Source: Sphagnum magellanicum
Taxonomy: Eukaryota; Streptophyta; Sphagnopsida; Sphagnales; Sphagnaceae
Reading direction: 5' to 3'
Length of the DNA stretch: 64,000 bases
Assembly: GCA_021904315.1 (NCBI GenBank)
Contig: CM038907.1
Coordinates: 24,373,223-24,437,222 of the forward strand
Shown here: piece after piece, positions 29,671 through 52,849 of the stretch
Numbering within the stretch: the stretch's first letter is position 1
How the letters are laid out: each line of letters starts with the position of its first letter
Program-made: the position numbers and the translations under genes
Notes under the pieces: generated by a model
Databases searched by the model: none
Told to the model about the DNA's origin: nothing
What the model saw: only the letters and a program-made list of their open reading frames with translations

Positions 29671-29727
29671 TGAAATTTAAAATTATTATAAATAAAAATT
29701 TATTGAATTTTTCTACTGGTAGGCTAC

Positions 29728-30088: not shown

Positions 30089-30093
30089 GGTTG

Positions 30094-31250
30094 TGACCAA
30101 ACAGCAGGTCACAACACAAGTGTGAACACAACACATCTTTAGGGTTTAGTTTTGTTTTCCTGTTTTCATTAGCCGTCACCTTTTTGCATTTTTGCAGCGG
30201 GAATTTCTCCATCACTACTGCAAGGAATGCGAGGGTAGGCTATTCTCTTTGTTTGTGTGTTATGGAGTACAGGAATCACGCGGCGCGATGGATGGTGGAG
30301 GAGGGAGCTGCATTGAAGATGGTTTGGTGGAAGGGACGGGAGAAGCAAATATAAGAGGGAGTATGAGGGAGAAAGAAGGACGGCCAGGTAGGTGTTTTGG
30401 TTGGCAGTTATTGTCTTCTGACTACTTGGCTGGTTGTTGAAATTCTCCGCTGCGCCAATAACATAGCTGAGTAGTTGTGAATGTCATTGTAAGAATAGAT
30501 ATGAAGGGTTGATGCCAAGGAATGATGGAGAATTGAGGGGTCCAAGCCATATAACTAAGGGGGCATATTGAAGAAAATGAACATCTTGGAATGGGGACTT
30601 TGTGTTCTGGTACTTTGCATCTGTGTTGTAGGCAGTTGTCTAAGTGAGTATTAGAAACCTCAAGGGGTATCCTTAAGGTGGACAAAATGAGTATACAAAG
30701 TAAGAGTGAAGAAAGGACTTGAAAAGAGAAATTTGCCATTCATTCTTGCATAAGAGTTTGTCCCATTGAGTGGCTCTAGGCGAGCCTGGTATCTACTATT
30801 CAAAATCGAGTGATGTAGAATGCATTTAGATTCAAGAGTCTCTAGGTCTTAGGTTTTCAGACAAGAAGAGTGGAAGCACGCGCATTGTTGCATTTAGTGG
30901 GGAATGGGTTAACAGCTCAATGGATCGAGTGAACCTTGAAAGTTTTGACCTCAAAGGCCATACCTCAATAGATTCTTGATTCTTTGATGATATGCATTGG
31001 AGTTAAGTAACTAATGGTTTTTGACCATTCAAGTGGATGTAAGGTGTAAATTTTGGATTCTGTAACAGCTTTGCCAATTTGTGTATGCATAAGCTGGTTC
31101 TGTTGAGATCAATGATTGTCAGCATGAGTCTTCTGTGACATGAGAGCGAGAGAAAAGGTCAAAAGATGTTATTTGTTATAGGATACTAGAAAATCCAATT
31201 CTATTTAGGCCCATGGTATGTGGTCAAGTTTGTTATTTTCTCTTCCACTT
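30094..31250 (+). repeat. Candidate 5' LTR/leader of the gypsy element
   Basis: This is the segment between the left insertion boundary (starting TG) and the primer-binding site. Its position fits a 5' LTR. However, no matching second copy exists at the right end of the element, where the sequence runs from integrase straight to the boundary. The LTR identity is therefore positional inference only. Confidence 0.4.
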
Positions 31251-31255
31251 TCTTT

Positions 31256-31267
31256 TGGTATTAGAGC
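31256..31267 (+). other. Primer-binding site (initiator Met-tRNA type)
   Basis: TGGTATTAGAGC differs at one base from TGGTATCAGAGC, the complement of the plant initiator Met-tRNA 3' end used by most gypsy and copia elements. It lies about 75 bases before the first gag-like ATG at 31331. Confidence 0.7.
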
Positions 31268-31330
31268 TTGTTTTATTGGTGACAATGTGGGAATTCCATC
31301 ACAATTGGACATAAAGATGATTAGGACAAT

Positions 31331-31450
31331 ATGTCATCATCTAGTGAGCATGAGATTGAGCTGAATGATGTTACATAGGAGATCCATGAGCAACAATTAG
31401 TTGTCAGGTTTGATTATTTGAGAAGACAGTATGAACCCCAAGTAGGAGCT
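31331..31450 (+). pseudogene. Gag N-terminal fragment of the gypsy element
   Basis: From the ATG at 31331 the frame reads MSSSSEHEIELNDVT, then a TAG, then continues EIHEQQLVVRFDYLRRQYEP. This acidic, coiled N-terminus fits a plant gypsy Gag start. The similarity to a Gag is lost after about 31450, where roughly 0.9 kb of unrelated sequence separates it from the main gag domain at 32377. Confidence 0.4.
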
Positions 31451-32350
31451 CTGATTTTACGAATATTGGGGTTTGGTATAGTAGTTATTATGGGTGTTAA
31501 TCCTAATGAGGCTCAAGTTGGAGATGTTGTAATGGAGATAGCACATAATGGTTTTTGTACCCATGCTTAGGTTTGGATGAGGATTAAGGATGAAACAAGA
31601 AGTTGGGAATCGACCTCCGAATTACAGAGGCAATACCACTATACTTCATACCTTGCATAGAATCTCAATTTCCATTCTTGAAAGATAGGATAGGACACCT
31701 AGGATAGGAGACATTTGGATTCCTCGACTTTGTGTCTCACCTAACCACTTTGTTAAGCTCTACATACTTGGTGTGGAAGATCTGTTCTAGATTAAAAACC
31801 AAGTTGTTAGGGTGGAACATTTGGGTTCAAGATCTTGTATCTTGAATTGGAGGATATGGCAGGATGTGGAGCAAAAGTTGCAATACCAACTAGAGTCTAC
31901 ATATGAGCAAACTTTCTCAACCTTACCATCTGATATCATTCCTTTGAGACCCTGTAAGGGAGGGGGATTAGTCTGAATTTTTGAGCTAACACTGAATTGA
32001 TGAATTACAATGTTTGGAGGTGTGGAAACTAAGCCTAAGTTATGCAATTTGGTTTGACATCTAACAAGATGTCAATAAAACCCTAAAACCTCACTTACTA
32101 GGATTTAAGAAGCTCTGGGATTTTCATTTCTAAGGGATGTGGGTGTGTCTACCTCGGGGCAGAAAACAAGATGTGGTGCTTTTGACCTGATCCAATTTGG
32201 TGTCTAGGACCTATTTGCAGAATGGTGGAAAATCAATGTAGCATTTGATAGGTAGGAATGGATTTCCATCCAATCTTGCAAATACCATTTCTTGATCTAG
32301 TTCTTTCCCTTAATCCAAGATATGAGGCATGGTGCATAGCTACTGGATGT
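31451..32350. other. Unassigned 0.9-kb segment inside gag
   Basis: It contains stops in all frames and no Gag-like protein. It lies between the Gag N-terminal fragment and the retrotransposon gag domain. It may be another insertion or a strongly decayed part of the element. No target duplication or terminal motif could be identified. Confidence 0.35.
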
Positions 32351-32376
32351 AGTGTCAACCACCTGATACGAGGGAA

Positions 32377-33314
32377 GTGGAAATAGTGGAATTGCAGCAA
32401 ATTGAAATTGGAAGTTACAACATGACGAGCCCACAAGGCATGGATGAGTTGTTCTGGGATAGAGACGATGAGGATGTTAATGATTGGGAAGAAAGACTTA
32501 CCATGGTTGTTGAAGTGCGAGATTTTAATGCAGATAAGCTTTTCAAGATTACGAAGCTAAATTTGAGGGGTAGGGCCAAGGAATGGTTTAGGAGGTTGCA
32601 GCAAGTATCGGTTGATTGGGCTGAATTAAAGACTCTGATAACACAAAAATATGGGGATGTAGATGCTGATGACATTAGGATGAAACTTGATGCCATCAAA
32701 CAAGAACCCAAGGAAAGAGTTCAAAAATATTTTGAACGTCTCGACAAACTGTTTCAAAAGGGCAGGATACAAAACGCCAAACAGAAAAGAAGATTTTGGC
32801 TAAATTGAGGCTAGAATTTTGGAAATTGTGTTTTGTAAAAACATTTGCAGACATTGAAGTTTTAGTTGGTGCTGCAACAGAATTAAAGAGGGTGTTGGGC
32901 GAACTTGGAGAGACTCCCTATGAACCTCTGAAAGAGGAACAAGAGGAAGGGGCCTTAGAGACTATGATGGAGAAGCAGGTCATTGCATTAAACAATACGC
33001 TTATCAATTTCTTCAAGGGGACTTTGCACAATCCAAAGGCATCATCATCTACCAATGTGTTTGGAGGATGCCAAATCTGCAAAAGAGGAGACCATTTGGC
33101 CACCACCTATCCTAGGTTAGATGAGCCAAGGCCAAAATGTGCCAAGTGTGGTATGCCTTATAGGACAGAAAATTGTGGAATAAAATGTACCTACTGTGTA
33201 GGATTAAGCCATTTTGAGGACATATGTTGGAAGAAACCCAAGGATGGGAAGCCTCACTTTGGAGCTGCGAACTTTTTGGAAGTGTTGCTGAATGATGAAA
33301 AAACGACCATGTAG
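32377..33314 (+). pseudogene. gag: gag (capsid and zinc knuckles), frameshifted
   Basis: The first part (32377-32808) carries the retrotransposon gag capsid domain, with LRGRAKEWFRRLQQVSVDW followed by ITQKYGDVDADDIRMKLDAI. A frameshift near 32790 moves the frame so that the protein continues in 32796-33314 (AKLRLEFWKLC...). The C-terminal part has Cys-rich knuckles: a first CX2CX4H whose last Cys is replaced by Tyr (CQICKRGDHLATTY), a CAKCGMPYRTENC cluster, and a complete CX2CX4HX4C (CTYCVGLSHFEDIC). Gag packages the element RNA in virus-like particles. The frameshift and missing ligand mark it as inactive. Confidence 0.85.
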
Positions 33315-33361
33315 CAGATCAATAAGCTTTGTGGGAATGATTTTTTTATTTTTATACTTGA

Positions 33362-34093
33362 ATGCCTAGGAGGAGGATTCCTATTGATGTAGCACCAAGA
33401 GGGGTTGTACCAATACCTAAGGCTGCAGGAGAAGGAGCAGGTGTAAATCGGGACATTTCAGTTGGGTCCAAGATTCTTTTTCATTTCATAAAAGGAAAAA
33501 TTTCACTTTCACCCATGGAAACAATACTCATGATTCCAAGAGAACTAGAACACCTTGAAAATTTGGTAAGGTTGGCTAGACGGAAAAAAGACTCAGACAC
33601 AACTGAGAATCAGGTTTCCATGGTTTCTGTAGTTCCAACCCTAAAAAGGATTTGCATCAACAAAACACATCGGAGCAAAACTCTACATTTACTTGTGGAA
33701 ATAAACAACTATGTGGTTGAAGGATTGGTGGATATTGGTGCATCCATGTCTATTATGGCAGTTGTTGTAGTCAAAGAATTAGGTATAATGCATTTAGTTA
33801 ACAGTTTTGAAACTTATAAAACTATGTCAGGAGTAGTGACATAGGCTTTGGGTAGGATTGATGACATACTAGTCAAGGTTGGGGGCATACAATGCATTAT
33901 GACCTTCATGGTAGTGGATATAGACAGTTACAATGTATTGCTTAGATTGCATTTTCTGATAAAAATTGGTGCAATCATGGATGTGGAACGAGGTTTAATA
34001 CAAGTAAAACATGGTCTTGGAGCTCAGGTGGAAGTATTACCATTAACTATGGTAAACATGCTACAGAGAATGAATTTAGAAGTTCTGATGTGA
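33362..34093 (+). pseudogene. Aspartic protease domain of the gypsy element
   Basis: The open frame contains HLLVEINNYVVEGLVDIGAS. The active-site triad region is DIGAS where DTGAS is usual, so the catalytic Asp remains but the neighbouring Thr is lost. A TAG at 33842-33844 interrupts the frame, which then continues as GRIDDILVKVGGIQCIMTFM and NVLLRLHFLIKIGA (the second protease strand region, usually ILGRPFL). It processes the polyprotein in active relatives. Confidence 0.8.
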
Positions 34094-34663
34094 AATGTTG
34101 CTACTGCTTTAGAGAGCACACATCTCAATGGGGCTTCGGACGTGGCTACTAGGAATCCATACTTATATGATCCCATTATGCCTAAACAGGCAAATGCGCC
34201 TATGTAAGACTTTAACGATGAGATGGATGATAAAGAAGATTATGATGAAGGGTCTCAATTGGCTGAGCCGAATGGTGATGAGAATGAGTTTGGGAATATC
34301 GAACTCGAAGATTTGGTGCTAGCAGAAGGCCCACAACAGATTTTGTAATTAATACTACAAAGGGAAGTTGATGATTTCATGGAAGAAGAAATCATAGACT
34401 TTGATGACTATGTTGATTGGATTAAATGGGCTTCTAATGCAAAGGAAAGAAGGCATGTCATCTTTAAATCTAAAGGTTGTGCAGAAGTTCCCGTACTACT
34501 ACAAGTTCATCAAACAGATTGTACTGGCACTCCCAGTGATTGTAGTGGGAAGCTGACATTACCTGATAATTAGGATGTGAGCACAAGGTGGAAGGAGATC
34601 TGCTAAAAGATCCGGGTTGATCAGAATCTGGATGGGGACAAAAGACAACGGCTCTCGAAGGTT

Positions 34664-35612
34664 TTGGAATGTTACCAAGATGTGTTTGTTTGGAACAAAG
34701 GGGAATTGGGATGTTGCACTATTGGAGAACATTCCGTAGACACACAAGGGTTTCCACCTTGCAAAGTGTCTCCTGGTCGACTATCATACAGGGAAGAAGC
34801 GGAGGTGAAGAGACAGATTGATGTGTTGGTAAATTTGGGCAAGATGAAGCTTAGTAATTTTGAGTATGCATGTCGTGTTACCTTGCCAATAAAAAAGGAT
34901 GGAAGTAGGCGTTTCTGTGGAGATTATCGACCACTCAATATGCAGACCCGTCGAGATTCGTTTCCAATGCCTCTTGTTGACGATGTGATTTCCCAACTGG
35001 GGAAATTAGCTTGGTTTACTACATTAGATTTGCAGTCCAGATTTTGGCAGATTTGTATGGCTCCTGAAGATATGAAGAAAACGGCATTAATTACCAATAC
35101 TAGGTTGTATGACTGGACAGTTATGCCCTTTGGTCTCAAGAATGTAACCAATACTTTCACCAGAACAATGTCATCAATTTTTAAGGAGTTAGGAGACAAG
35201 TTCCTAAAGGTATTTGTTGACGATCTCAATATACACAACGAAAATTGGGAAGAACATCTTCAACACTTGGAAGCTGTACTCTCCAAGCTCAAAGAAGTAA
35301 ACTTGAAATTGAACCTAAGCAAATGTTATTTTGCTGCTAAAGGTATCACGTTTTTGGGTCATATGGTTAGTAATGAAGGTACCAAACCAGATCCTGGTAA
35401 GATTGATGCAGTGTTGCATTTTCCAAAACCAAAAACAGTTACCAACATTAGGTCTTTCCTGGGACTGACATGGTACTATTGAAATTATGTTTGAGGATAT
35501 TCATGGTTGGCTAGTCCGTTGTTTGAGTTAACAAAGAAAGATGTTACTTTTGTGTGGAATTTGGAGTATCAACATGCATTTGATGCCCTGAAAAGAGCAC
35601 TTGTAGATGCTC
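34664..35612 (+). pseudogene. pol: Reverse transcriptase of the gypsy element, interrupted
   Basis: RT motifs are visible in order: a KMKLSNFEYACRVTLPIKKD-type palm start, FCGDYRPLN, WFTTLDLQSRFWQI (motif A, Asp present), PFGLKNVTNTFTRTM, the catalytic box as FVDDL (usually YVDDI/L), FLGHMVSNEGTKPDP, then IRSFLGLTWYY. Stops at 35480-35482 and about ten bases later break the connection domain (YY, stop, NYV, stop, GYSW). The frame then runs to ALKRALVDA, where the nested solo LTR begins at 35613. Both catalytic Asp residues are retained, so loss of function came from stops and insertion. Confidence 0.92.
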
Positions 35613-36634
35613 TGTCGCAACCCTAGCTTTGGGCTCGCGACCAAGGCAAAGGGAATTGCAAGGGTGCGGGCCAAAGGAAGCTCGGGAGTTAAGCCAAAAG
35701 GAAGCCCGGGAGTTAAGCCAAGAGGATGCCCGGGAGTCAAGGCAAGAGGAAGCCTGGGAGTCACATCACATACTCCCGGGAGTGTGAGAAAGTGTTAGAA
35801 AGTGTGAGGGAGTGAACCCTCACACGGGTTCACTCTCCCAAGGCAACTCCCACTTTGGGAGATGGAGTCCCGGTGGACTCCCGAAACTTCAGAGAGCGAT
35901 TGCAGGGGTCAAACCTCAATGTCTTGTGGCGTTCTTTATATCATTGGAAAGCTCTTGAAGCGTAGATATCTAAAATGGGATCTCATTGCTCATTTGGACA
36001 TATGAAACACAAGTTATGGCCAAAAGAAGGGTCGGGAGTCGAATTCCCGGGAGTTTGCCAGTTTTGACTCCCGACCATTAAAAGTCGGGAATCGACCCGA
36101 AATACTTGGCTATAGAGAACGTGCGATATACCGTTGGAAAGGTCTCGACAAGATCTACAACTTTGCTTCAGACTGCATTGCGATCTGAGGTCTGCTCGCA
36201 AAGTTATGGGGCTCCAAAGTCCCGGGAGTCCCATTTGGCGCGATTTCAGGACTCCCACTCGGGAGTCCCGGGAAAAATAGCCATTTGGATGTAGCCTCCG
36301 TGGAGAGCTGCAGAGTATACTATAAGGGGGAAGGTGGTGGCTTCCCCCAAGGTCCGGGCCGTGGTGAGTCTTGTGTGTCTGTGTTGCCCGTGGCTTGTCC
36401 TAGCACCAAAAGTGCTCCAACTAGACACTAACCACTTTGTGTGGTTCCATGCAGGCCCGTGTGAGTGAGTGAAGCTTGTCAACTCTTCCTAGTCTATCCC
36501 GGGACTTCTAGCACACCCCTCTCACCCCCCCTCTAGTGCTAAAAGTCGGGAGCGTGCTCCAAGTTCCAACTCCTTCCGCATTACCACATACTTGGACCCT
36601 CAAGTGGGTCCACTAGGAACTTGGGGGCGCGTCA
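35613..36634 (+). mobile_element. Solo LTR nested in the gypsy element
   Basis: It is 1022 bp long, begins TGTCGCAACCCTAG and ends GGGGGCGCGTCA, and is flanked on both sides by TGCTC (35608-35612 and 36635-36639), a perfect 5-bp target duplication. Removal restores the pol frame: RALVDA before and PILVRFDF after. It holds four 24-bp subrepeats (about 35676-35765) around CCCGGGAGT, many CCCGGGA palindromes, and a TATA-like ACTATAAGGGGGAAG near 36318. There is no internal coding region, hence solo LTR. It is homologous to 45229-46121 on the opposite strand. Confidence 0.93.
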
Positions 36635-36639
36635 TGCTC

Positions 36640-37022
36640 CCATACTTGTACGTTTTGACTTTAAGAAACCATTTTGTCTTGATGTTGATTGGTCAACAAA
36701 AGGTGTTGGTGCCATCTTATATCAGAGGGAAGGCAAACTTGAGAAAGTAGGGGCTTATGCCAGCAAGAATTTGACTGTGGCACAAAGGAAATTCCACCCC
36801 ATGGAAGGAGAGTGTTATGCATTGATCTGGGGCATCATGCATTTTAGGCAATATCTACACAAGAACCATTTCATTCTGAGAACAAATCACAAGCCGCTTG
36901 AATGGTTAACAACAATGTCAGATGTGCATGGCAGGAGAGGTAGGTGGATTGATATGTTGCATGATTTCAGTTTTAAGATATTGCATAGACTAGGACTAAA
37001 GCATGCAAATGTTGATGCTTGA
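36640..37022 (+). pseudogene. RNase H domain of the gypsy element
   Basis: The frame reads PILVRFDFKKPFCLDVDWS, with catalytic Asp in the first strand, then GAILYQREGKLEKVGAYASK, FHPMEGECYALIWGI (catalytic Glu) and FILRTNHKPLEWL. The last is usually TDHKPL, so the third catalytic Asp is changed to Asn. A TGA at 37020-37022 ends the frame. RNase H removes the RNA template during reverse transcription. This copy would be inactive. Confidence 0.88.
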
Positions 37023-37256
37023 AGTAGAAACCCAGTAGGGCAAGCCATAGATGATGATGATTTCAAGAAAGAAATCCAGGATATTGGGATAGTGCAAACT
37101 AACGTTCATGAAACAACGAAAAAAATATTCTCTGTTCAATATGGTAAAGATTCAGATTGGTTGGGTTTCAGAAGATAGGTAGGTAAACTGACAGAACACC
37201 ACGAATCTTGTTTTGGCATCAACCACTGGCGTTGTTCAAAGGAACACCAACTATTC

Positions 37257-37535
37257 ATGCTTGATGTTATAATAAAGATGAACCAGGATGAGGAGACTGA
37301 CTCACTTATGGAGGAGGTAAAGGCAGCAAGGAGTGGAGCAGATCAGAATTTGAAAATTGCTGATGGTAAGCAAGAATTGAAAAGGAAGATACCAAGGTAC
37401 TATGAAATGCAACAACAACTGGAGTTGGTGTTGGCTGTTCAAGAATTATCTAAATTTGGAAACCACGAGTTAGGTCATACAGAATCCGATGAAGAAAAAA
37501 CATACGATATGGATGCAAGGAACGTTAACATCTAG
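37257..37535 (+). pseudogene. Linker between RNase H and integrase
   Basis: This is an open 92-codon stretch, acidic and Lys/Gln-rich (QQQLELVLAVQELSKFGN), lying between RNase H and the integrase zinc domain. It is probably part of the pol polyprotein rather than a separate gene. Confidence 0.4.
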
Positions 37536-37674
37536 AAGGACACCACATGTTTGGGGTTATTAAAGGAAGACAAGCTACTGGACACAGTGGACCTTGAGAG
37601 CAAAAGGGCCAAAAAGAGAATAACTAATTATTGCTAGAAAGAGTAGAGGCTCTACTTCAAGGGATTTTTGGTGC

Positions 37675-38830
37675 CCAAACCAAAGGAAAAAATGACATTT
37701 GTAATTCAAATGCATGAAAATTTGGGGCATTTTGGAAAACAAAGAACCTTGGCTGAAATTTACCGAAGGTACTTCTGGCATAGTTGAATAGAGGATGTCA
37801 AGATAGTTGTTAGAATGTGCCAGCAGTGCCAACTGGTGAGAAGCATGGGTAACATATGCTCCGAAGATGAAGAAATGAAAAACATCCTTGTTTATGAACT
37901 GTTTTATTGGGTTGCTTTAGATACTACAGGGCCACTACTTGAAACTAAGACAGGGAACAAATACATCCTTGTTGCTGTTGATCATTACTCAAAATGGTGC
38001 GAGGCAAAGGCTATGGTTGACCATGGTGCCAAGACGACAACAAAATTCTTGGAAGATGATGTTATTTGTAGGTATGGAGTCCCCAAGTTTGTGGTTACTA
38101 ACAATGGTGGGGAATGGGGTGCAGAATTTGATGTTATGTGCAAGGATTACATTATCCAACATTAACACACTACACCCCAATGGCCTCAATGTAATGGGAT
38201 GGTGGAACGTTTAAGCGAGACTATCAAACATAGCATTACCATATTTGCTGCAACACCGAAAAACATAGACTGTTGGGATGAGCATCTGGCCAAGATCATG
38301 TTTGGGTACAGATGCGGGATCCAAGCTAGTACCAAGTTATCCCCCTTCATGATTTTGACTGGTCGCACACCACGTCTTAGGGCTGATAATTACCTACACA
38401 CTTTGACTGCTGTGACTAATGATAATGTTGATGTTGAAGTTGTTACAGCATAGTTTCTATAAAAAGTGAGGCTTATAGCATAGTTTTTACAAAAAGTGAA
38501 GCTTACAGCAAGCATCCATGAAAATTTCTTGCTCAATGTGGAGCAAGCACAAAGGAAACAAAAGAAGACCTATGCTACCAGAAAAGGTAAGCAAACTTTT
38601 GAAGGTCTAGTTGCAAGAAAGACAATGGTTAAAATGAAGAAACCAGGAAAAAAGAAAGCTTTGACTATAAGCTAGGAAGGTCCATACCAATTCATTGGAC
38701 ATGTAGATGGGAAAGGAAACTTTGATTTTGAAGAAGGCAACAAAATATGCATCATCAAGGATGCTGATGGACATCAGTGGGAAAGATCTCACAGGGATCT
38801 TCAAATCTATCATGTTCAACAAGATTGAAT
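37675..38830 (+). pseudogene. Integrase of the gypsy element
   Basis: The HHCC zinc domain is present as HENLGHFG...VRMCQQCQ, broken by a TGA in YFWHS-stop-IEDV (about 37785). The core (37900-38450) has ALDTTGPLLETKTGNKYILV (first Asp), VTNNGGEW where DNGGEF is usual (second catalytic Asp to Asn), a TAA at 38163-38165, then NGMVERLSETIKHS (catalytic Glu). The C-terminal part has GPYQFIGHVDGKGNFDFEEG and ends near 38826. No chromodomain is visible. Integrase inserts the cDNA and is inactive here. Confidence 0.88.
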
Positions 38831-38867
38831 GGAGCCGAGGGATTCAGCTTTTTAAGGTTACAGGGTG

Positions 38868-39166
38868 TCTTGGTGTTGATCTGTAACTACATGGCATTGG
38901 TCGATACCAATGACGGTGGGGCTATTATTGACAATGTGGTGGCAATCGTACTAGCAGCCATAGTGGCCACTTGTATCTGGTCTGCCTGTGTCACAATTGT
39001 CATAGCTTTCCGCACCATCGCCTACATGGTATTAGCGTCCACGATGTTTAGAGCAATTTAGAAGATCAGTGAACCAGCACCCAACAGCAACTTCCGCACC
39101 CCCAGCAACTTGTGCGCCGCCAGCTCAAGGATCTCCAATGGTGTTCTTCCTGTCCACAAAGAGTAG
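38868..39166 (+). pseudogene. Unrecognised ORF, 3' half, block copy 1
   Basis: Right of the gypsy insertion the frame resumes as NYMALVDTNDGGAI, then a hydrophobic stretch (IVLAAIVATCIWSACVTIVI), ending after VLPVHKE. A TAG replaces a Trp codon present in copy 2 (AI-stop-KISEPAP, about 39058). Many differences from copy 2 are C-to-T or G-to-A changes at CpG sites, as expected for methylated, non-selected DNA. Confidence 0.4.
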
Positions 39167-39392
39167 TAAAAGCCCACACCACCATGCAATGTTTTTGGGT
39201 CGACTTTGTGTTGTAGCCACAGTGGCAATGATCCATAGAAAGACCTAATGGGCACATAGTAGCATTTCTTCAAGGTTTAAAGGTTTTTTTTGTTTTTTCC
39301 CCTTTCACAAGAGAAATTAACAAAGTCACCCTGTCTTTGGGCCTCCTTTCACCCCCTAACCGCTCTTTTAGTGGTATCTGTAAAGTAAGGAA

Positions 39393-39716
39393 ATTTTAGT
39401 AATTTTGAATATGAAATGCTAAAACTCAATACAAAATGCTGAATCTCATCATTTAATGCATAATGTTCGAGAGGAATTAAAGCTGCACAGGTAGGAGCAG
39501 TGAAAGTCTATGTAATAGTGGAGGGGTTCACGAAAAAAGAAAGACAAGATGAAAATTTTATTAAATTTGAGTATGAAATGCTAAAACTAAGTACGAAATG
39601 TTGAATTTCATCATTTAATCCACAATGTTCAAGAGGAATTAAAGCTACACAAGTAGGAGCAATGAACGTCTATGTAGTAGTGTAGGGGCTCAGGAAAAAA
39701 GAAAGATAAGATGAAA
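39393..39716 (+). repeat. Two-unit tandem repeat, 162-bp period, copy 1
   Basis: Each unit contains ATGAAATGCTAAAACT, CTGAATCTCATCATTTAATG, GAGAGGAATTAAAGCT and GTAGGAGCA-TGAA-GTCTATG, followed by AAAAAAGAAAGA-AAGATGAAA. Equivalent points lie 162 bases apart. Both units are also present in block copy 2. Confidence 0.85.
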
Positions 39717-40317
39717 CTTAAGAAAACCATCAAAATTGATGGCTTCCTGAATTTCACCCCCCCATTGAATGTTGATGTACTTTTTTGTAGTTTTTCTTTT
39801 AATCTCACCTTGTGTATGACCAAACTCAGGGGATTACTGATGTCTTTTCCTGACTTTATGGATATCTCTAGTGTTTGGGATTTCTAGTGGATTTGGAGGG
39901 GTTTCACCTTTGAACCAACCTTCTTGTTACTAGGGAAATTTTTGCCAAAGTAAGAAATAAAAATAAAATGTCTGAAAATGCAATGGTTTTGGAGCACTAA
40001 TTTTTTTGGGCAAATTTTCACCATCTTTTGGATAGTGGTTTTTTTTTTTTTTTTGTGGTGGATTTTCACCATGTGGTAACCAAGAAAAAAAGCTTAATGA
40101 ATGGCCTTCAGGATTTTGAACTACAAGATAAACTGAAAGATTCACCATAATGTGACAGCATGGATGGGCAAAATAATCATTATGTTGATCTAATAGAGTC
40201 ACCAAAATCCAATAAAAGATCAATGGCTGGAACCATCATAGGGAGACAAAAAGCGAAGGCCAAAGAAAGGCCAAAAGACACATAGCCCACAAGAACCAAA
40301 AAAAAAAGGGAGAGAAC

Positions 40318-43300
40318 TAATCCCTCTCGTGGTAGAAAGCTATTTCACCCACGGCCCGTCTAATGTGGTTTGCATGCAAATTGTGAGATCTAATAGTAAT
40401 GGTAGGTCTAGAACAAGCATCACCTATAAACACAATCTTCTTTTTTATAGCAAAGGTTAAAGCATGCTGAAAAGCAATACTAACATGCTAACTGAAAAAT
40501 TGAATGCAAAAAAAACAAGGATAAATGACCTCCCAATTGTCTATCGTGGAAACGACGAACACATTTTCTAATGAAACGATCCACATCATGCCCAATTGTG
40601 TGGTGCACTTTCATGGCCATTGGAACAAAGTGGTGCCTCTCATGAAACCTTATATACTTGCGGAGTTTAGCAATGACACTAAGTTCCGCAATTGTACTTG
40701 TTGGTTGACTAATGACACTCAACGCCACATCTCTTACATTGGGTTAATAACTATCACATTGGTAACAAAAACCTAATCCTCTTAGATCAAGTAAAGATTG
40801 GTTCATAATGAAATTCCTAACTTAAGGGTGTACCATCATTCTCTCCATATAGTGTGCCCATTCTCTTGAACGAAGGCATACATGATGTTTTGGATGGTGT
40901 CATGTGTCCATTAACCTCCAAATGAGTAATGAACTAAATGCATGTTAGATGTGTCCAAGCTAGATGTGTCCAACTTGTGTTCACATTCACACATGAAAAG
41001 ATTAGATGCTGAAGGCTGAATCAAATTTAAACAAACATGCAACATTGAGATGAAAATAAAATATGTGATGTGAAATGAACAAATAGATGGCCTAGCAACC
41101 AACCATAGCCCTACCCCCATACCCATATAAAAATGAATGTGGGTTTTGGATGCTGAGGAAATGGAATCATCTTCCAAGATAGACCTAAAGGATGTGTCAT
41201 GGTGGATGTCCATCAAAGATGCATGTAAACCTAGAATGCCAATAATTGTTAAACTCTTTTTAAAAAACTGCATTCTTTTAGTTGTAGGAATAAGGCCATT
41301 TCACACAACACATAAGCATAACTAAAGCAGATGTGGGCCCACCTCAACCTAAGAAACATATTCTTCCAAAACAGGTTTATCGAAAATATAAAATTTAAAA
41401 TACAAATATGAAACCATTATAACTTAACTCCCTACAAAAACAAATGGGGCATAATCCTCCATAAAGAGAAAGCTTATACCACCAAAGGATATTAGTAATC
41501 AAACTCGACACCTTGCTAAAGGGCCTTGGAAAGACTCCCATGATCTTGGACCCATAATGTCCCCACATATTTGCATAACTCTCGTGTCGAAACCCGCCAA
41601 AAAAGACAAGAAGGAAAAAGAAGAGATATTGTCCGTGTGAAATAAAAAGGTCAATGAACTATACATGAAAACAAAATGCCCAAAGTGACCTAGGCGGCTC
41701 CCAAGAAAGAAGATCATTGATATGTGCCACATTTTAAGATAATGGTTCATCCAAAAAATGCGTGGCAAAGTCTTGAAAACCCATTGGCACACCTAAAATG
41801 TGTAAGCCATCTTTGACCAAAGTGTAACCTTGAGGAATTTCTATGCTTGGAAAGATCTCTAATGGGTTCTAAAGCTTGCACTTTGACACCTTGAATTTAA
41901 GCTCAACTAGGGCTAATTGGGTCAAAAGGTGGTCAAAAGCACGAGTAATTTCATTCATAGACCTCATGATGTGGGTATCATTCGTTAGGGATGGAAAGAT
42001 GTAACTAGAGGCCCACATGATGGTCTTTAAGAAAGTTCGATAATGGGTTAAACCAAATAAAGGACCTCCTAAGGGGTCACCCTGCTTCTTGTTGAAAGAT
42101 GATTCAATAATGGTGACCCCTTCCACATGTTGCCCATGCTAGTAGTTAAAGGAAGAATGAACACCATAAAACAACCTGGTAAAAGGGACAATGTTCACCA
42201 AAAGCCCTTCGACATCACATAACTTTTTAAAAATAATACTTAGAAAAATGCTATTAAAAACGTTTTTGATGTTGACCTACATCATGACCCAATCAAGGTG
42301 TAGGTCGAGAAGGGTTCAAATGCCAAAAGGGATGGCCTCATAGCCTCCAAGGGTTGATACTCCAAACTAATGGGGGATAGATGTTCTTGAAATGGCCCTC
42401 GAAGTTGTAGGACAATGGAACGACTAATAAGTCGAAAAAACATTTCGCCTAGAACAATAGGATGAAGGCCACTAATGTCTTTTGGCATTGCTAACAATTT
42501 GTTAACCCCTAGCATCAGGATCACCGACCTAAAGATAACCCCACGAGTAACAATAGCAACCTGGAATAATTTCAAAAACCCAAAAATGGGTCCTCTGGTA
42601 TAAAACATCCTGAAAAATGTTCATATACCATCCGAAAAAACCCACTTGAAAACAAATGGGGAGCAGTGACTAAACCTTGGGCAAGTAAAATCCTATCCAA
42701 AACAAAAATGTGCTCAGGCTAAAAGTAAAAAATAGGTGGAAGGACAAGGTCTAAACGAAGGGGGTGTAACTAGCGTAAGGCAACAACGATGTCCTCCAAA
42801 ATAATAACTAGTGTCATGGGCTAAAGAATTTTGGTAGTGCGACTATACTTATCGGCTCTCCTTAAAGTTAAACATTGGTGAAAACAAGTGGTTGAAAGAT
42901 CTTCCCATGAGTGGTAAAAATGGGGTGCACATGAGGCACATGAAGACTCCTCCTAAAAAGTGGACCAATTGTTTGCCATAAACCTTTTGAAGTGAACAAA
43001 AACCTCTTATTGACTTCGATGACCTCTTCAAATATAATACAAACAGTAACGGGGCAACATGAGGAAAAGGAACCATGTTAACTTGTTCGTTAGGTCTCGA
43101 ACAATTTGGTTAAGGGGTAAGCAAAAAACCTATCTAATTTTGTCTTGGATGGCTTGAGGGATCATAAGAAACCAATGAAGGCACACGAAACAAGATTCAA
43201 ACAACCCCAAAATGGAACTAGATTAAGCCTGAAACCAACCCCAAGAAGTCAGAGGATTAAAACCAAGGAAAAACACAAGAGGGGAAGACACTTGCAAATA

Positions 43301-43588
43301 TAAAATAGCTTGGTTAACCTAGGAAATGAGGCTAGCAGGATGGTTAACACTCTTGACATGCCTGAAGAGGTTGCCTAAAGTGTAAAGGTTAGAACAATGA
43401 AAACAAGGGGTATCTCGAACTTACGAAGGATGCAAAGAAAGAATCATTCAAAAAAAGGCTACACCCAAAACCCCTAGGAAGTAAAAACCCAAGTAGCCTG
43501 ACCCAAAAAATGGGGGGATGGGGGGAAGGAAGAAAAAAAAAAGATAAAACAAAACCAAACCCCAAAAAAGAAGGGGAATGAAAACTTT
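40318..43588 (-). pseudogene. Dead non-LTR retroelement with RT and restriction-like endonuclease, copy 1
   Basis: Read on the minus strand: RT finger sequence GVNKLLAMPKDISGLHPIVL-GE (about 42450), motif A as MM-stop-VNIKNVFN (TAG at 42277-42279; usual Asp is Asn), KKQGDPLGGPLFGL (about 42080), then the catalytic box as FPSLTNDTHI (usual first Asp is Asn). A thumb-like region with SWESFQGPLARCR follows. Downstream come a Cys/His cluster (MCECEHKLD...HLVHYSFGG, about 40930-41000) and an endonuclease-like segment with IAKLRKYIRFHERHHFVPMA (about 40600). Order and motifs fit R2-type elements whose nuclease follows RT. Stops and shifts are frequent. The N-terminal limit is uncertain. Confidence 0.75.
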
Positions 43589-44489
43589 CCTAGAAAAAGG
43601 ACTTTCTTGTTATTGTAAGAACTCGCCAACAATGGCAAGCCCAATTGTTGCAAAAGCACAATAACAAAGTCTATTTAAAAGAAGATCTTCAGAAGTTCCA
43701 AGTGTTGTAAAAGGGTTGTTAGAAAGGCTTGTCACACAGTCGCAATTGCCTCAACATTGCCAAGAACAAAAATTCTAATTCTCTTATGGCCTAGGAACTA
43801 TTATTGTTACTCCTCCTCCCCAAGCTCCTTCTCCTTACTAATGCACATTGTGACCAAACGGCAAAACTCAACAACGCCATGGTGGTTGTTGTTGTCGTCC
43901 AACATCCATCACTATCACCTTCAAACCTCCATGTTGATCTAATCACGTGCCACTCACACTAACCCCCTTCATTGGATGCTTGAAATATGATTTGCAAGGG
44001 GCCTTCATTGTTACTTTGTTCCTTTGAATCTTTTTATTCCCCGAATCTAGTTCCCATCATTGGCATTAATGAAAGTTCAAAAGCAAGGTTTGCCATTAGT
44101 ACCAATCTAAGATTTTAAAGGTTTGGTATTATAATAGGATGAGATTTTGTTTTTGTGTCTTGATAGGTTTTGTTTTGAATATTCAAATTAAGCAAGTTGC
44201 AATAATGACAAATGCAACAAAGGAATTTTAATAGTGAGAGGTAACTATTAAAAAATATGTGGTATCACTATAATGAATTTTTAGTAAGCTTAGTGGTTTA
44301 GAGTAGTGGTTGGTCCTTAGTGGGATAAAAAAACCATTGAATAGGCGATTAGATGTTTAGTTCAAAAAACATTTGTGTGGTTTTTTATAGTGCCTAGGCA
44401 ACATGTGTATAATTAGTCATTTCATGCGGTGGTCATTAAGGTGACTAAATAAACTTTAATTGATTGGTCAAACATAATTTTGATTAGTC

Positions 44490-44685
44490 GATGCAATGTG
44501 GCATTTAGACATTAGCCACCCAAGCTAGGCCATATGGCATTTAAACATTGGCCACCTTAATTACTCCACGTGACATTTAAACATTGGTCACCCAAGTTAG
44601 GCCATGTGGCATTTAAATATTGACCATTTAAGTTAAGCGACATGGCATTTAATCATTAGCCATTTAGGTTATGCCACGTGCCTAA
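44490..44685. repeat. 36-bp tandem repeat, about 5 units
   Basis: Units start ATGTGGCATTTAAACATTGG followed by CCACCCAAGTTAGGCC. Start points at 44496, 44532, 44569, 44604 and 44641 give a period of 36-37. Units are moderately diverged. Confidence 0.85.
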
Positions 44686-44829
44686 CTAGGCCTAGGTCTA
44701 GGTGCTTAAAGTAGGTTTAGGCAACCTAAGATTACCCTAAGAACCTATAGTATGTCATTTTTTAGGTTGTACCTAAGGCTAAGCAACTATATTAAACATA
44801 GATATAGGCCGCTTAAATAGGTAGGAATA

Positions 44830-44872
44830 AGTAGTTAGTTAGTTAGGTAGGTAGGTAGGTAGGTAAGTAGGT
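44830..44872. repeat. (GTAG)n/(TTAG)n microsatellite
   Basis: The run of TTAG then GTAG units (AGTTAGTTAGGTAGGTAGG) covers about 40 bases. Confidence 0.9.
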
Positions 44873-45228
44873 TCCTTTTTATTTTTTAATGACAAACCTT
44901 TTTTATTGACTCGGTAATATTTACATTTTGAGTATATTTAATGCATGTATTTTGTGTAGATTATATTTTTTCATTTAATTATATAGTTTACAAAATTCAA
45001 CTTGTTGAGAAAAGATATGGGATAAATTTACAACATTATTTCACATCATCTTTTTTCTCGTATAAAAATACTCAATTTTTACCATTATTATCTTTTTCAT
45101 ACTTTGTCCAAATGAAAATAAATAAATTTCATTTAAAAGATTTCTCCAAGATCTACACATCTATAAAAAATTTCAAACAAAAATATCAAGTAATTGGACC
45201 AAAAATGCATTTGAATCTTCACCATTTC

Positions 45229-46121
45229 TGACGCACCCCCAAGTTCGTTAATAGATTTAATTACGAATCCAGGATGAAAACATCGGAAGGATGACGATAT
45301 GTTCATTGGCTTGAAGCACTTCGAGGGTAGAGGGGCATGCTGAAGCTGCGAGATGGGGACTAAAAAGAGTGACAAGTGAGTCAAGTATTCACATGGACCC
45401 GCACAAATTAAACAACAAGTTGGCTAATGCATAATTGGAACACTTTTGGTGCATGGATGAACCACAGGTAAACATGGACTCACAAGACTCCCCACGGCCT
45501 GGACTTGGGGGAAGCTATCACCTTCCCCCTTATAGTATTCTTTGTGCTTGGCCACAGGGCCAGCATTTAAATGTCATTTTGTTAAACTTGGGAGTCCTAA
45601 AATTCTCGAAATTGGGACTTTCGCAACTTTGGAAGCCCATAACTTTGTGTGCAGACCTCCGATTAGGGTGAGGTCTCAAGAAAAGTTGTAGCCTTCGTTG
45701 AGAGATTTCCAATGGTATATGGCACATCACCTTCACGCAAAGAAATCAGGGTGATTCACGACTTTTAGTGGTCTTTCTTTTGGCCATAACTTATGTTTTA
45801 AGTACCCAAATGGATCATGCGAGCCCATTTTGAACATCTACGTTTTAAGAGCTTTCAAATGGTATAAATAACTATTTTATTCAATGGGTTTTGACCCTTG
45901 CAATTGCCTTCTAAAGATTTGTAGGTCCATCAGAAGTTCAACAGGAGTCCATTCAGACTCTAACTCCCAAAGTGGGAGCCCAATTGGGAGTGTGTGGGTT
46001 CATTCCCTCACACTTTCCTACACTCCCAGGACAAATGAAATGTGGCCCCTAGGCTTCATTCCTGGATCGCACCTTTGTAAGCCCTTGCTTTGGTCGTGAG
46101 CCCAAAATTAGGGTTGCGACA
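45229..46121 (-). mobile_element. Solo LTR, same family as 35613-36634
   Basis: On the minus strand it starts TGTCGCAACCCTAATTTTGG and ends CTTGGGGGTGCGTCA, matching the ends of the nested solo LTR. It is 893 bp and is flanked by ATTTC on both sides (45224-45228 and 46122-46126), a perfect 5-bp target duplication. Internal similarity includes CCCACTTTGGGAG, GAAAGCTCTT-AA-CGTAGAT, AAGTTATGGCCAAAAGAA and the TATA-like ACTATAAGGGGGAAGGTG. It lacks the four 24-bp subrepeats of the other copy. There is no internal region, so it is a solo LTR left by LTR-LTR recombination. Confidence 0.94.
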
Positions 46122-47958
46122 ATTTCATACATTTGAACAACAATGATATTTTGAAGATTTTTTTTTTTTTTCATCAAAAGATTTGTAAATAAACATATTT
46201 GAAATCAACATGGTTTTTTGGTATATTACATATCTAACATTTTCCCACCTTTTAAAAATATAATGAGATAATGAAAATTGTGTAAATGTTGTGTTATATT
46301 TATTTTTAATTATAAAAAAAATTTTAAATATTAAATATAATATAATTTAAAATTTTAAAAATTTTTAAAAAATTTATTTACATTATTAAAATGTCATAAT
46401 TATTAATTTATACACATATCTTTTTAATCTCAAAATTTTTATCAAATTCTGTTGTGAGTCGTGAACTTAAATTTTATTTTTAATGTTGTTTTCAGTTCAT
46501 TTAGTCTGATTTAATATAAATTATTAAAAAATTCCAAGTTGTATGACCAAATATTTTGATAAATGATTAAAAAATAAATTTTATATTCGTTGCTACCCAT
46601 CACATGGAAACATGAAAAATAATACCATTTTGGGGCATGTGGATTTCTTTTGAATTTTTTTGAATATCATTAATAGGAATGTATTTTCATTATTTAATGC
46701 CACAAATTTCAAAACAAATATTTATTTAAATAAACATTTGAGCAAGAGTCCCAACTTGAATATTCTAATTATATACTAAACATCAATTTTTATTTAATTT
46801 TATGGTTTCAAAAACTTTAGCAATTTGTTTTCCATTTTTTGAGAATTTTTTAAAATATGAAATTTTATCCCCCAAATTTGTTTTTAGCCACTATCTAGAA
46901 ATTCACAATAAATAATTAATGACTCCAAAGCAAAAGTTCTAAAAATTATAAGGTATTAATTATTTATTTGGTCAATCATTATATGTTTGATCATTTACAA
47001 GCTTATAATATGCTTAATAGGTAAATATGTATGTCTACCTTTTAATTCTTTTTCCTTATAATTCACAAGTTTTTATGCTTCAAATTGTATATTATTAACT
47101 ATTATATGAAGTTCATGATGAAAAGTTTTTAGTCACATAAATTTGATCTAGCCACTCAGTAACATAAAAAGGAATATGAAACAAATATAGGAAGAAGTAT
47201 ACCTAGGTTAAATTAAATATACTTAAGTCATGTTTCATTAACTTAACATAGGTATGACCTAGTTAAATATATTAAGTTATACTTAGGCTAAGGTAATCAT
47301 TGTATACTTCAATTGGGTAAAATATGATATATACTTAAAATATGTCTATTGTAACCTATGACTAGGTTAGGTATATCATAATTTATACATAGGTTGAACA
47401 TATCATAACCTATGTACCAAGGCTAGGTATTAATATATGATTTCTTATGTACCTATCTAGGTATATAATGATGTATACTTACATTAAGGTAGGCTAGGCC
47501 TATTTAATTACATGTAGCTAGCTTAGGTATATCTTAGGTTTATACATATTTAGAGTATATGTATTTAATTTATATGTACATAGCTTCTACATATTTACTC
47601 TATACATACCTAGCCTTACATATAAGCTACATTATCTAAATATTTTATCTTACTTTGGCTATGCCCTACATCAAAACTTGACATTTATGATTAAGACAAA
47701 TATGATTAATGACCCTTTTCTAATCATATAGTTATGTATGCCATGTTTTTGTGCCTAGTCTTATTCTTGTAACCATGGATATAACTACATGAGTCTTCAT
47801 GGATAGAAATATATTCTTTCAAAACTTGCCACAATTGCTTTCAATATGAAACTTAGTGTTGAAGAGCTTTCACATTCATAGTTTGAATATCGCCACCTTT
47901 GGATAAATATACTTAGGGATGCTCACCACTTGAGTAACATCACAAATTGAAAACAAAA

Positions 47959-47979
47959 ACACACACACACACACACACA
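47959..47979. repeat. (CA)n microsatellite
   Basis: An uninterrupted AC dinucleotide run of about 10 units. Confidence 0.95.
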
Positions 47980-48210
47980 ATTTTGAAAGGTTATAATCTC
48001 CAAAAATTAGACAAAAATAATAAAAGATGCTAGATTTCCTTACATAGTTTTCAATATGTAACCACAAATATAAAAGGTTGATTAAAGATTTGCACTTCAT
48101 ATCTTGTTAATAGTGAAATTTGACTAAATCTTCCTACAGATGATCACCATTTTTTCCACATCTTCATGTGAACAATTGGCACTTAAGCTAGATTACAAAA
48201 TCCCTTCAAA

Positions 48211-48232
48211 AACACTGGTTTGAACCAGTGTT
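48211..48232. repeat. Perfect 10-bp inverted repeat with 2-base spacer
   Basis: AACACTGGTT and AACCAGTGTT are exact reverse complements separated by TG. The arm could form a short hairpin. No associated gene or element was identified. Confidence 0.8.
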
Positions 48233-49926
48233 GGGAGAGTACCCTTTTTGCACCTATGTACCTTGCCAGCAAACCCAAATAAGGCTATATTAACATATCG
48301 TACACTGGGTAGTCAAATATTCTCTTACACTAATATATATTGAAGGCAAAACAATATTAAGATTATAACATTATTATGCCTTGTTTTGGGTTTTACCCTA
48401 GGGTTTAATTTCAGCAGGGTACCCTTTTTCACATGGTAACTTTGTGAAATTAAGTGGTAAAAGAGAGAAGGTATGGTTCCCATTCCCTTCTAACATCACT
48501 AAAAATTCTCTCTCGAGCTCTACACAATATATCCTTTCCCTCATGCTAAGCTTGTGAAATCTAACTTGGGCAAAAAGGTAATTTTGCCCTTTCCTTCAAA
48601 TATTAGTGCGGAATCTCTTTTCACCTTAATATCTACCCTTCATGACTATTTGACATATACATGAAGTAAAATCATACAACCTTTACTTTCATGATATATT
48701 CAGCATGAAATATCTTTATCGTGAGGGTAATTTTCTTTTAAAGAATAATATTGTGCTCGAGTTAAAGCACAATCAAGTATAAAAAAAAAGTTGTTGTCCA
48801 TTATCATGTTGGTAATTGACATTTTTGAATGGCTTAAATGATGGTTGAAATCAAAACCAAACACATTCAAGCAAGAAATACATTTTGGACCATAACATGT
48901 TGGGTTGTAGCGAGATAGAGGAGGATTGCTTATTATGATAGTCACGCTAAGTAAACACATTGTTTAGGTAAACATGAATGAAACACTTATATGAACCTAG
49001 TCCAAAACCTTATGTTCGGAGTTTTTCAGGCTTCTGATTAGCCCTCCCCTCATCTCTCTCCATGCATAACCTCTCCCTCTTTCTCCCTGTTTTTTCCTTA
49101 TCTTTTTGCATGCATCATCTGGACAGAGAATGGTTATGGACTTTCGTCCATGGAGAGGAGGGTTATATGTTTTTTATGCTCGTCTACAAGAACATTATAA
49201 AACATTTCATCCACCCACCAGATTTTTGTGGCAAAATTTTCACAGAACAAAAGAGAAAAACTTGGAGAATTCACAAGTTTCCTCAGTGTAGATTGTGTGT
49301 TTTCAGCGTACCACTTCTGTGAAAGCAAAAAATATTGAGGGACAAAAAAAAACCAACAAAACTACTTGGGTTGCCTCTCAAAATGCATGTTTAAGTTTAG
49401 ATAAATATATTTTTAGGCAGCCTTTTCATTAGTTGAAGCTTTACAACTTCTGTTCATAACATATTAAATGTTACCACGGAATGGATCAATGTTCATTCAA
49501 AATTGAATGATCATCCAAAACAGTCTGAAATTTAACATACTAAAGGAACTTGTTTTTAACAAGGAGCATAATCATCTTGAAGGGCTCACAAGCCACAAAA
49601 CCCAAAACCAAGCCAAAAGCCTTAAATTGAAGGGTTGAAGGTTAACACATAAATCTAGAAGGAAGATGGCTTTTCAAGTGTAAAGAATCTTGGAGAAATT
49701 TCTTTGCTCTATCTCTCATCCCATGCCTATGAACAATGACATTGACTTGCATGCCCCACTAACATTCACTTATTCAGACAATTGAAATGTGGGTAAAAGT
49801 AGTGGATCCCTTACCTTCTAGACAAAAAGAAGATTCCCTAAATCTTAGAAAACTTCCAGCCACTTAAGGCATATCCATCCGCTGTAGCTACCCCTCTTGC
49901 CAAGGCTATTGCAAATCCACAAGAAG

Positions 49927-50130
49927 ATTTAGTGAAATTTGGCTACAAGATAAATTTTTGAAAATAAAATTTCTCAAATACTCTTCTATATTTTTGGCTA
50001 CATACTTGAACCATGTATAGAAATCTGGCAATGTTTCTTAAATTTTTTGGTCAAGCTCTGGCTATTGAAAATCTAAAACAACTTGAATTTAGCACTTTTA
50101 ATATATAATAACATTTTTTGGCCATAGCTA
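49927..50130 (-). repeat. Dispersed noncoding repeat, inverted copy 1
   Basis: This is a reverse-complement relative of 29390-29670: AAGATTTAGTGAAATTTGGC, CTTAAATTTTTTGGTCAAGC and ACATTTTTTGGCCATAGCTAG correspond to the forward copy's 3', middle and 5' parts. It is strongly diverged. Confidence 0.6.
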
Positions 50131-50647
50131 GTGCGCAAAAAAAATACTACTGCAAAGAGAAAATTTTTAAAATTAAAAAAAAAGAAGTCAAGATACGCTT
50201 ATCACATTAAACACTAGATAATCATCCAAGATTAAAACATTAGTTGTAATCAATAAGGCATTTTTTTTACATATTTTTTCTAATCAATCAAACATAAGTT
50301 GGGAACTTTATATGGGTGGTGAAACATGAGAACACACATTAAAAAAATGCATGGTCATCCAAAATACTTAAAGCAAGAAGCTCATTAAGTAATGGTTCTG
50401 CTCAGATTACAAGACAAGTTGAAACTTGAAACAAGACCTTGAGATCAGATGAAACCACAGAACATGGTCAAAATGAGCTCTTAAGATTAAGAGTGAAATT
50501 GCTGATTCAGCAACACATAGTTGTGGGGGACAGGTTGGGGGACCTGGAAAAGGAGCGTTTTTTTTTGGGGGGGTGTTTTGGAGGTGTGGGATGGGGAATT
50601 TATTATTTCAATATTATCATGTAGAGAAAGTGGCAATGATCAATAAG

Positions 50648-50860
50648 AAGATTTAGCCAAATTTGGCTACAAGCTAGAATGTGAAAGTAAAAAACTTGTT
50701 AAACATCTTTCTTTATCTTTGGCTACTTGCTTGAACTATGTATAGAAACCTAGTGATTTTTCTTAAATTTTGCTGAAAATATGGGTACTGAAAATCTAAA
50801 AAAACTTGATTTCAGCACCACTTTTTATTTTTAATATAACTTTTTTGGCTACCCAGCAGA
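50648..50860 (-). repeat. Dispersed noncoding repeat, inverted copy 2
   Basis: A reverse-complement relative of 29390-29670 and close to 49927-50130, with AAGATTTAGCCAAATTTGGC, TTTCTTAAATTTTGCTGAAA and AACTTTTTTGGCTACCCAGC. Confidence 0.6.
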
Positions 50861-50869
50861 AAAAAGAAA

Positions 50870-51464
50870 AAAGAAAAAAAGGGTTGCCCATCAGCGGAAA
50901 ACAAAATACAGAGGGAGGCGACCCGTTTCTAAGAACAAAACGCCCGCAGGAGCAGGCATTACGTTTACCGAAACAACCCAAGGGTGAACGAAACGTGCGC
51001 CTAAATAGGTATCGTGTTCTTAGGAAGGGCTATTAGTCCGGGCGAGATTGGGAGCAGGTGGTTAGCCGGCCGACCCCACTAGTAGTGCCGATAATCCCAG
51101 CAATTGCAAATGAATAATCGGTAAGTATCAAACGGCCTCAGCGTTGAGAGGGGAGACGCTGAGGATCCAACGACCGCAAACTGTGCACACGCTCTCATCC
51201 TTGCACGCGCTCGCTGGGAGGTGCGAACGGTTCTCCCTGAAACCTTGGAACGTCGCGGTGCTCCCGACAAGTCGGGAGGAGGAGGAGGAGGAGGACGACG
51301 ACGACGACTCTTGATTGATCAAGATGCCAACTTCACTATTATAGAATGCTACACTATAAAGATCGATCTTTCTTGGGACCCTCACGAATTATAGCACTTG
51401 AATCCTGAGCTTTGATATCTCATGAAGCAGGTCCATCAGCTATACTCGGGTGATTGCACTCGGA
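50870..51464. other. GC-rich island abutting duplicated block copy 2
   Basis: Composition jumps from AT-rich to GC-rich, with CpG-rich words such as GACGACGACGACGAC and GCCGGCCGACCCC. A GGA/CGA trinucleotide run lies at about 51275-51308. On the minus strand an 85-codon ORF (51128-51385) contains an 11-Ser run made by that repeat plus CKDESVCTVCGRW, but no domain is recognised. It could be the first exon or CpG-rich promoter of an unrecognised gene. It ends exactly where similarity to PILS intron 9 begins. Confidence 0.4.
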
Positions 51465-52092
51465 ACATACATACTTCCACACAAGGTTCCTGTAGGAATT
51501 CGAGTAGTATGGCTAAATCCTGAAGTGTACTGTCGGCTTCCCACTGCCTGCTTTCAGGGGAATGGCATCAGGCAACGCATCAACAAGTGTTGTGTTGTTA
51601 GTTGAACTTATAAGGAACCATTGGTTCCAGCAGAATCAAAGAACTATAGATCCTGGTTTTTTTTAAAACCTTAAAGAACTGATGGTTTTCAAGAAAAGAA
51701 CAATCAATTAACTGGTGGTTGGATTATGGCTGTTTTTCTTCTTTTTTTTTTCCCAAAAGAATTTGAGAACAATGTTTATATACCAGAACCAGGACTTCAA
51801 TTTTTTGAGAACCGAGTTTTCAATGAATCCTCAAAAACTGCCCTGATAACTGCTGGGTGTGTCTGTTCATGTTTCTAATGCTAAATCAACAAGCTGTGTT
51901 GTGTTTTCCAAAGCTGGTTCCAAAATTCAGGTTAGGATTTTACCTGGCACAAACCACCCAAGTTCACTGGTTTCAAGTTTCAAGTAGGCATATATGATTT
52001 GATATGGTTCTGTTGCCAATCAATATAATCTGGAAAAAATAAATTGTTCCATCTCCGGTGCTGATCAATTTTGGTGATTTTGATGTCTTCAG

Positions 52093-52217
52093 GAGCTGTG
52101 ACCAACCTCCGGGGCCATGCAGAAAAAGAAGCATCTGCCATATTGTTTTGGGAGCACATTATAGCAGTTTTTTAGCTCGCATTCTGGCTCATTTTATATA
52201 TTAGAATTCTCTTTTAG
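52093..52217 (+). pseudogene. PILS exon 10 pseudo-copy
   Basis: The copy retains the AG acceptor and the GAVTNLRGHAEKEAS coding sequence, but a TAG at 52173-52175 replaces the Ser codon after IIAVF, cutting off the last helix. No exons 1-9 lie upstream. It is a non-functional duplicate of 23913-24037. Confidence 0.92.
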
Positions 52218-52554
52218 CATCTGAGTATGGTCAATATTTTAGGCTGTTATATGGAGTCCCTTTTAACTTGGTGAGGGTAAGAAAATTTGCAATATCATGT
52301 AGGTTATTGATTTAGCCCAATACACTAACCGAGTATAATATATTCTTGGCATTATAACAAAATGCATCTTTGTTCGTTTAAGTGCTTTAACTGGATTTTG
52401 AGTGAATTCATTGATCTCACTTACTAAGACTAAGTGAAGATTCAAGGAACTTAATAAAACTTGGTGAGAAGGATTCCATAAATTCACTAGTCCACTAAAT
52501 GAGGACTAATGAACTACACTTGATTTATACTATGTTTTGATGTTTTTAAATATA

Positions 52555-52816
52555 CTAGTGTGAACCTAGTGCATAATGCACCCGTCAAGTAATAACTGTC
52601 ACAGAAAACAAAACCCATCAAAAAAAAAAAAAAACAAAACAAAGGTCCGGGCAGTTTAACTGACACAGAAAACAAAACCCATCCAAAAAAAAAAAAAAAC
52701 AAAGGTCTCGGCAGTTTAACTGACATAGAAAACAAAACCCATCAAAAAAAAAAAAAAAAAAAAAGGTCCGGGCGTTTTAACTGACACAGAAAACAAAACC
52801 CATAAAATAAAATTAA

Positions 52817-52849
<33 letters not shown>

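Follow-up and report, generated by a model that had tools for sequence, protein, structure and literature searches.

LINEs with a restriction-like endonuclease (RLE), i.e., CRE, R2, R4, NeSL, HERO and Utopia, encode in a single ORF a zinc finger, a reverse transcriptase (RT), a zinc knuckle and a C-terminal nuclease, as described in the accessible part of PMC5678591. The same text gives the knuckle between RT and nuclease as CX2-3CX7-8HX4C; for the nuclease it describes an H on the first helix, a D/E following the first strand, and a KX2KY motif whose first K is catalytic. Section 3 of PMC4640811 treats RLE-type LINEs as more ancient than the AP-endonuclease (APE) type; it reports R2 from six animal phyla and Utopia from Amoebozoa, SAR and Opisthokonta, and does not give plants; the accessible text of that paper names no land-plant RLE element. 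Judged by title, none of the papers listed by literature searches dealt with land-plant RLE LINEs, and an element with the RLE order would be out of the ordinary in a land plant.

The window analysed here, a 64,000-nucleotide stretch of contig CM038907.1 of Sphagnum magellanicum, holds two copies of a family that resembles these elements in its finger, RT, knuckle and nuclease-like C-terminus with KX2KY, and differs from them in its knuckle spacing and in having no GXW. It is like R2 in combining a C2H2 finger, an RT, a knuckle and RLE-like motifs, but R2 targets one 28S rDNA site (PMC4640811, accessible part) and the present copies have unrelated flanks. In that respect it can be likened, by description alone, to the HERO clade, many members of which have no target specificity according to the same text. 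Plant L1 and RTE elements share with it a non-LTR RT and a knuckle, and RTEs, as covered in part of PMC10741241, also have no poly-A; APE LINEs, however, encode an AP endonuclease alongside the RT (PMC5678591, accessible part), and none was found here by a weak scan. We read the family as an autonomous RLE-type LINE, dispersed and, as far as seen, extinct, with a probability of roughly 0.7 and with the assignment made at the level of the RLE group.

Structure of copy A

The features are listed in Table 1. Copy A lies on the minus strand and extends from 43930 down to 40195 as judged from its target-site duplication (TSD), position 43588 being merely where copy B reaches the window edge. Translation of the minus strand places KKQGDPLGGPLF at ~42084 and FPSLTNDTHI at ~41997, followed downstream by MCECEHKLD...HLVHYSFGG and, after this knuckle, by KLRKY (40654-40668), which is reached across a frame shift. 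The nuclease-like part of copy A has N at both D1 (40799) and D2 (40760). The translated window pieces, searched singly against Pfam and PDB, gave nothing beyond noise, the RT piece included, and genome-wide copies were therefore needed.

Table 1 Features of the LINE copies and of the tandem duplication in the window.
Feature	Position	Strand	Basis or remark
LINE copy A, whole insertion	40195..43930	-	bounded by 13-bp TSD
TSD ATTAGATCAACAT, 3' side of copy A	40182..40194	-	flank matching
TSD ATTAGATCAACAT, 5' side of copy A	43931..43943	-	flank matching
N-terminal C2H2 zinc finger, copy A (PCFHC...RHVKSVNH)	43341..43411	-	translation and finger query across loci
RT core, motifs A-D (VNIKNVFNSI, KKQGDPLGGPLF, FPSLTNDTHI)	41872..42276	-	translation; family rows match RVT_1
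Zinc knuckle, family form C-x-C-x9-H-x3-C	40914..40991	-	5-residue insertion here in copy A
Putative RLE part (THD, D1, D2, KLRKY)	40483..40910	-	motif order compared with accessible part of PMC5678591
Stop codon (40317-40319) and short 3' UTR without poly-A	40195..40319	-	translation, copy ends
LINE copy B, same insertion	60630..64000	-	runs on to ~64342 past the window (L009); self-comparison, flanks
TSD, 3' side of copy B	60617..60629	-	flank matching
First tandem segmental duplication unit, holds copy A	23282..51461	.	limits inferred from match ends
Second unit, holds copy B	51462..64000	.	extends to ~70440 on the contig

A dispersed and decayed family

The same assembly (GCA_021904315.1; 439 Mb, 31 contigs) was searched with DNA and protein queries. 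The DNA search gave at least 52 family matches with 40 of 503 candidates scored, and 30 loci were cut out (L010-L039, of which L010 is copy A and L011 copy B). The protein search gave at least 82 matches with 75 of 2676 candidates scored, and all 82 contain in-frame stops. Judging from the motif spacing, the full protein would be expected to have ~1,040 residues; among the 30 loci, the longest stop-free sense stretches that touch the element reach 208 (L033) and 217 residues (L029, where the stretch extends beyond the end of the element). Pairwise comparison of 24 near-full-length copies gave 3.86 transitions to 1 transversion. Within the candidates scored, the LINE family looks extinct in this genome. 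Young retroelements accompany the dead LINE: a genome search with PF00078 (150 of 3493 candidates scored) returned numerous places that scored identically and whose frames stay open for 1516-1526 aa.

The earlier note had described RT motifs followed by CECEHKLD and then by a segment with VVDVIVID and K-x-x-Y. This order was found in copy A, and queries for RT A, RT B/C, the knuckle and the nuclease-like part matched in that order in 29 of the 30 loci, but VVDVIVID itself occurs in copy B only (from 61200 downwards), the equivalent in copy A being VTNVIVIN. All five motif queries, with the C2H2 finger foremost, were in order in 25/30 loci, and the motif order across loci is more than chance.

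The N-terminal zinc finger typical of RLE-type LINEs was detected by the finger query in 26 of 30 loci at E ≤1 and in 25 at E ≤0.001, with its Cys/His residues kept in 20/23, 21/24, 21/24 and 22/23 aligned loci. Pfam zinc-finger models matched two of four N-terminal pieces, all below curated cut-offs (L022: zf-C2H2_4, 0.0093, and zf-Di19, 5e-4; L016 weaker). Some 380-390 residues, the finger among them, precede RT motif A.

RVT_1 (Pfam) recognised the RT-core rows with a best E of 1.8e-6 (2/12 rows at E ≤0.001 and 8/12 at E ≤1), and matched one of 19 rows (0.045) of alignment A1, whose start lies late within the RT. Motif A has D in 10 and N in 5 of 17 loci, motif B has D in 26/27, and the two positions of motif C have D in 16/29 and 23/29, with N in 12 and 5. 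The family thus has an RT related to RVT_1 with motifs A-D in order, as in non-LTR retrotransposons. The knuckle residues are kept in 25/26, 23/26, 23/27 and 24/29 aligned loci, in a spacing unlike the published form.

No relatives turned up among viral contigs, plasmids or the genomes of bacteria and archaea; NCBIfam gave only noise and Rfam no match. Many eukaryote databases are known to contain proteins whose motifs follow a comparable order (GDPLG RT, CxC...HxLxC..GG, HDxxRD, FDVxV, KxxxY), so relatives probably exist.

The nuclease-like C-terminal part

The knuckle is followed by some 200 residues that include D-x12-D and KX2KY, and the locus alignment shows the order H...D-x12-D...K-x2-K-Y. 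The H is kept in 25/25 aligned loci; D1 is D in 12 and N in 7 of 19, and D2 is D in 12, N in 12 and S in one of 25. In K-x2-K-Y, the residues are kept in 27/30 (K), 29/30 (K) and 27/30 (Y) loci. The N states at D1 and D2 would fit D decayed by G-to-A. The motif has the H and KX2KY of published LINE RLEs and, by eye, an E at a fitting place after the H in several rows; GXW just after the fourth strand is absent, with an HGTPG-like sequence in its place (by eye).

When three rows were shuffled, the order H, D/N, D/N, KX2(K/N)Y arose in 51, 65 and 122 of 20,000 shuffles, the copies not being independent trials, and the strict motif with both D undecayed is missing from two of the three rows shuffled. 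The order is therefore unlikely to be due to chance but falls short of proof. Profile searches of the C-terminal part against Pfam and PDB gave no nuclease, and the matches listed resemble noise. AlphaFold modelling of the part, using four rows from both window copies, had a pLDDT of 32 and was useless. The RLE-type layout proposed from the window stands, and is strengthened by the genome-wide copies, in the order of finger, RT, knuckle, D-x12-D and K-x2-K-Y, which is near that in the accessible part of PMC5678591, but the nuclease has no Pfam or PDB profile match and no fold match.

Copy ends and target sites

Copies stop ~110-125 bp past the stop codon, with the common end TTTTATTG or variants in 19/30 loci (crude pattern); one of the 30 has 8 consecutive A close to its end. 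At the other end, alignments in the DNA search start at query position 91-108 in 14/30 loci. With the low-complexity filter on, the loci share no homology farther than ~200 bp upstream of window position 43600. Homology to other loci is limited to ~40200-43700; copies A and B have ~230 bp extra at the 5' end, bounded by the TSD, that occur in no other locus.

Clear TSDs were seen at copies A and B only. L034 has a 14-base candidate with one mismatch, and for the remaining 28 loci (A and B apart) the flank pairs mostly fail to abut the element ends, in a matching made without a chance control. Dispersed copies, variable 5' ends and a TSD, clear at A and B only, are features of non-LTR retrotransposons. 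A fixed insertion target was ruled out: flanks are unrelated among the 30 loci, each matching at most a few others.

Copy B and the tandem duplication

Self-comparison of the window aligned 38863-43588 with 59324-64000 at 82% identity and the neighbouring blocks 23282-30094 and 51462-59329 at 94-96%. On the other side of the duplication, 48817-51308 pairs with 66893-70440 when 9.9 kb of contig past the window is added. The TSD of copy B is that of copy A with one change on one side. Because the flanks of copy A have matches in copies A and B only, among the 30 loci, and both neighbouring sides are duplicated, the two are not independent copies, as had been supposed, but a single insertion that was later copied with its neighbours in a ~28 kb tandem duplication.

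In 150-base steps between 40312 and 44061, the element body has an A/B identity of 0.76-0.86. The 3' flank is less diverged than the body (0.89-0.93); the 5' flank, starting at 44062, gives a less clear picture, with 0.91, 0.84, 0.85, 0.87 and then 0.79. More distant blocks are at 0.95-0.965. Between A and B, 596 transitions and 135 transversions were counted over 38863-43588. Methylation, by speeding up decay, probably accounts for this pattern.

Other repeats were seen around the two units. An 8.8-kb insertion (30095-38862), present in unit A only and missing in unit B, has gag, RT and RNase H ORFs of LTR-retrotransposon type; these are gypsy-type and were matched in the Pfam/PDB search, unlike the LINE pieces. 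Comparison of 29995-32400 with 37001-39000 by blastn found no terminal repeat pair. The insertion breaks, in unit A (29728-30096 and ~38863-39100), the counterpart of a unit B ORF at 59106-59627, which gave only Pfam noise and part of which recurs at ~71628-71843, on the contig past the window. Part of the insertion (35791-36440) recurs in inverted orientation, with 66% similarity, at 45415-46024. Tandem ~61-bp units with long A runs occupy 52593-53040 in unit B, the corresponding point of unit A being without an array, and ~7 near-identical tandem copies of a 72-bp unit lie at 13367-13868.

Interpretation

Under the RLE-type reading, one ~1,040-residue protein would have comprised a C2H2 finger, an RT and a zinc knuckle, all three evident in the copies, and a C-terminal nuclease of PD-(D/E)xK type. 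By analogy with R2, the nuclease may have nicked chromosomal DNA and the RT may have copied the element RNA from the nick (target-primed reverse transcription). Insertion took place at many unrelated sites, unlike that of R2, and the copies have decayed mainly by transitions, probably owing to methylation. R2 itself, among the groups suggested earlier, is ruled against by the dispersed insertion and the differing flanks among the 30 loci.

The family might instead be an APE-type LINE (plant L1 or RTE) of which every copy seen has lost the 5' portion that encodes the AP endonuclease; its C-terminal motifs would then be an ordinary knuckle and tail. Plant LINEs are commonly 5' truncated and RTEs also have no poly-A tail (PMC10741241, in part), so the missing poly-A does not speak against RTE; the linker of APE LINEs likewise ends in a CCHC knuckle (PMC5678591, accessible part). 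Neither an AP endonuclease nor RNase H matched at E ≤1 in 39 read-through frames from 13 of the 30 loci, but this silence is weak because RVT_1 itself surfaced in only 2 of the 39. The short upstream region holding the finger is a better argument against an AP endonuclease than the scan. Together with the shared start of 14 loci, the end of between-locus homology close upstream, the position of the C2H2 finger at the beginning of the protein and the ~200 residues with D-x12-D and KX2KY beyond the knuckle, it makes 5' loss from an APE-type LINE improbable.

Somewhat less probable still is a member of Dualen/RandI, LINEs that combine an AP endonuclease with an RLE, whose AP endonuclease part is missing here. 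Dualen/RandI elements are known from green algae. The RLE-like motifs at the C-terminus would suit such an element, since Dualen encodes both nucleases (PMC4640811, accessible part); against it stand the lack of an AP endonuclease or RNase H match (weak scan) and the N-terminal C2H2 finger in its place, with so few residues ahead of RT motif A. That neither profiles nor a fold model back the nuclease would also agree with an endonuclease-free LINE-like RT element that inserted at existing breaks and whose C-terminal motifs are chance or vestigial. This we consider very improbable, given several RLE features in the published order, a 13-bp TSD at A and B and many dispersed copies.

For the RLE-type reading, the wider meaning is more tentative, at somewhat less than even odds: land plants may have had a separate, once abundant and non-site-specific clade of RLE-type LINEs, and the oldest LINE type would then not be confined to animals and protists. 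If true, an RLE family scattered at high copy number through a plant genome would throw light on when the AP-endonuclease type took over there and would exemplify RLE insertion that lacks a fixed target.
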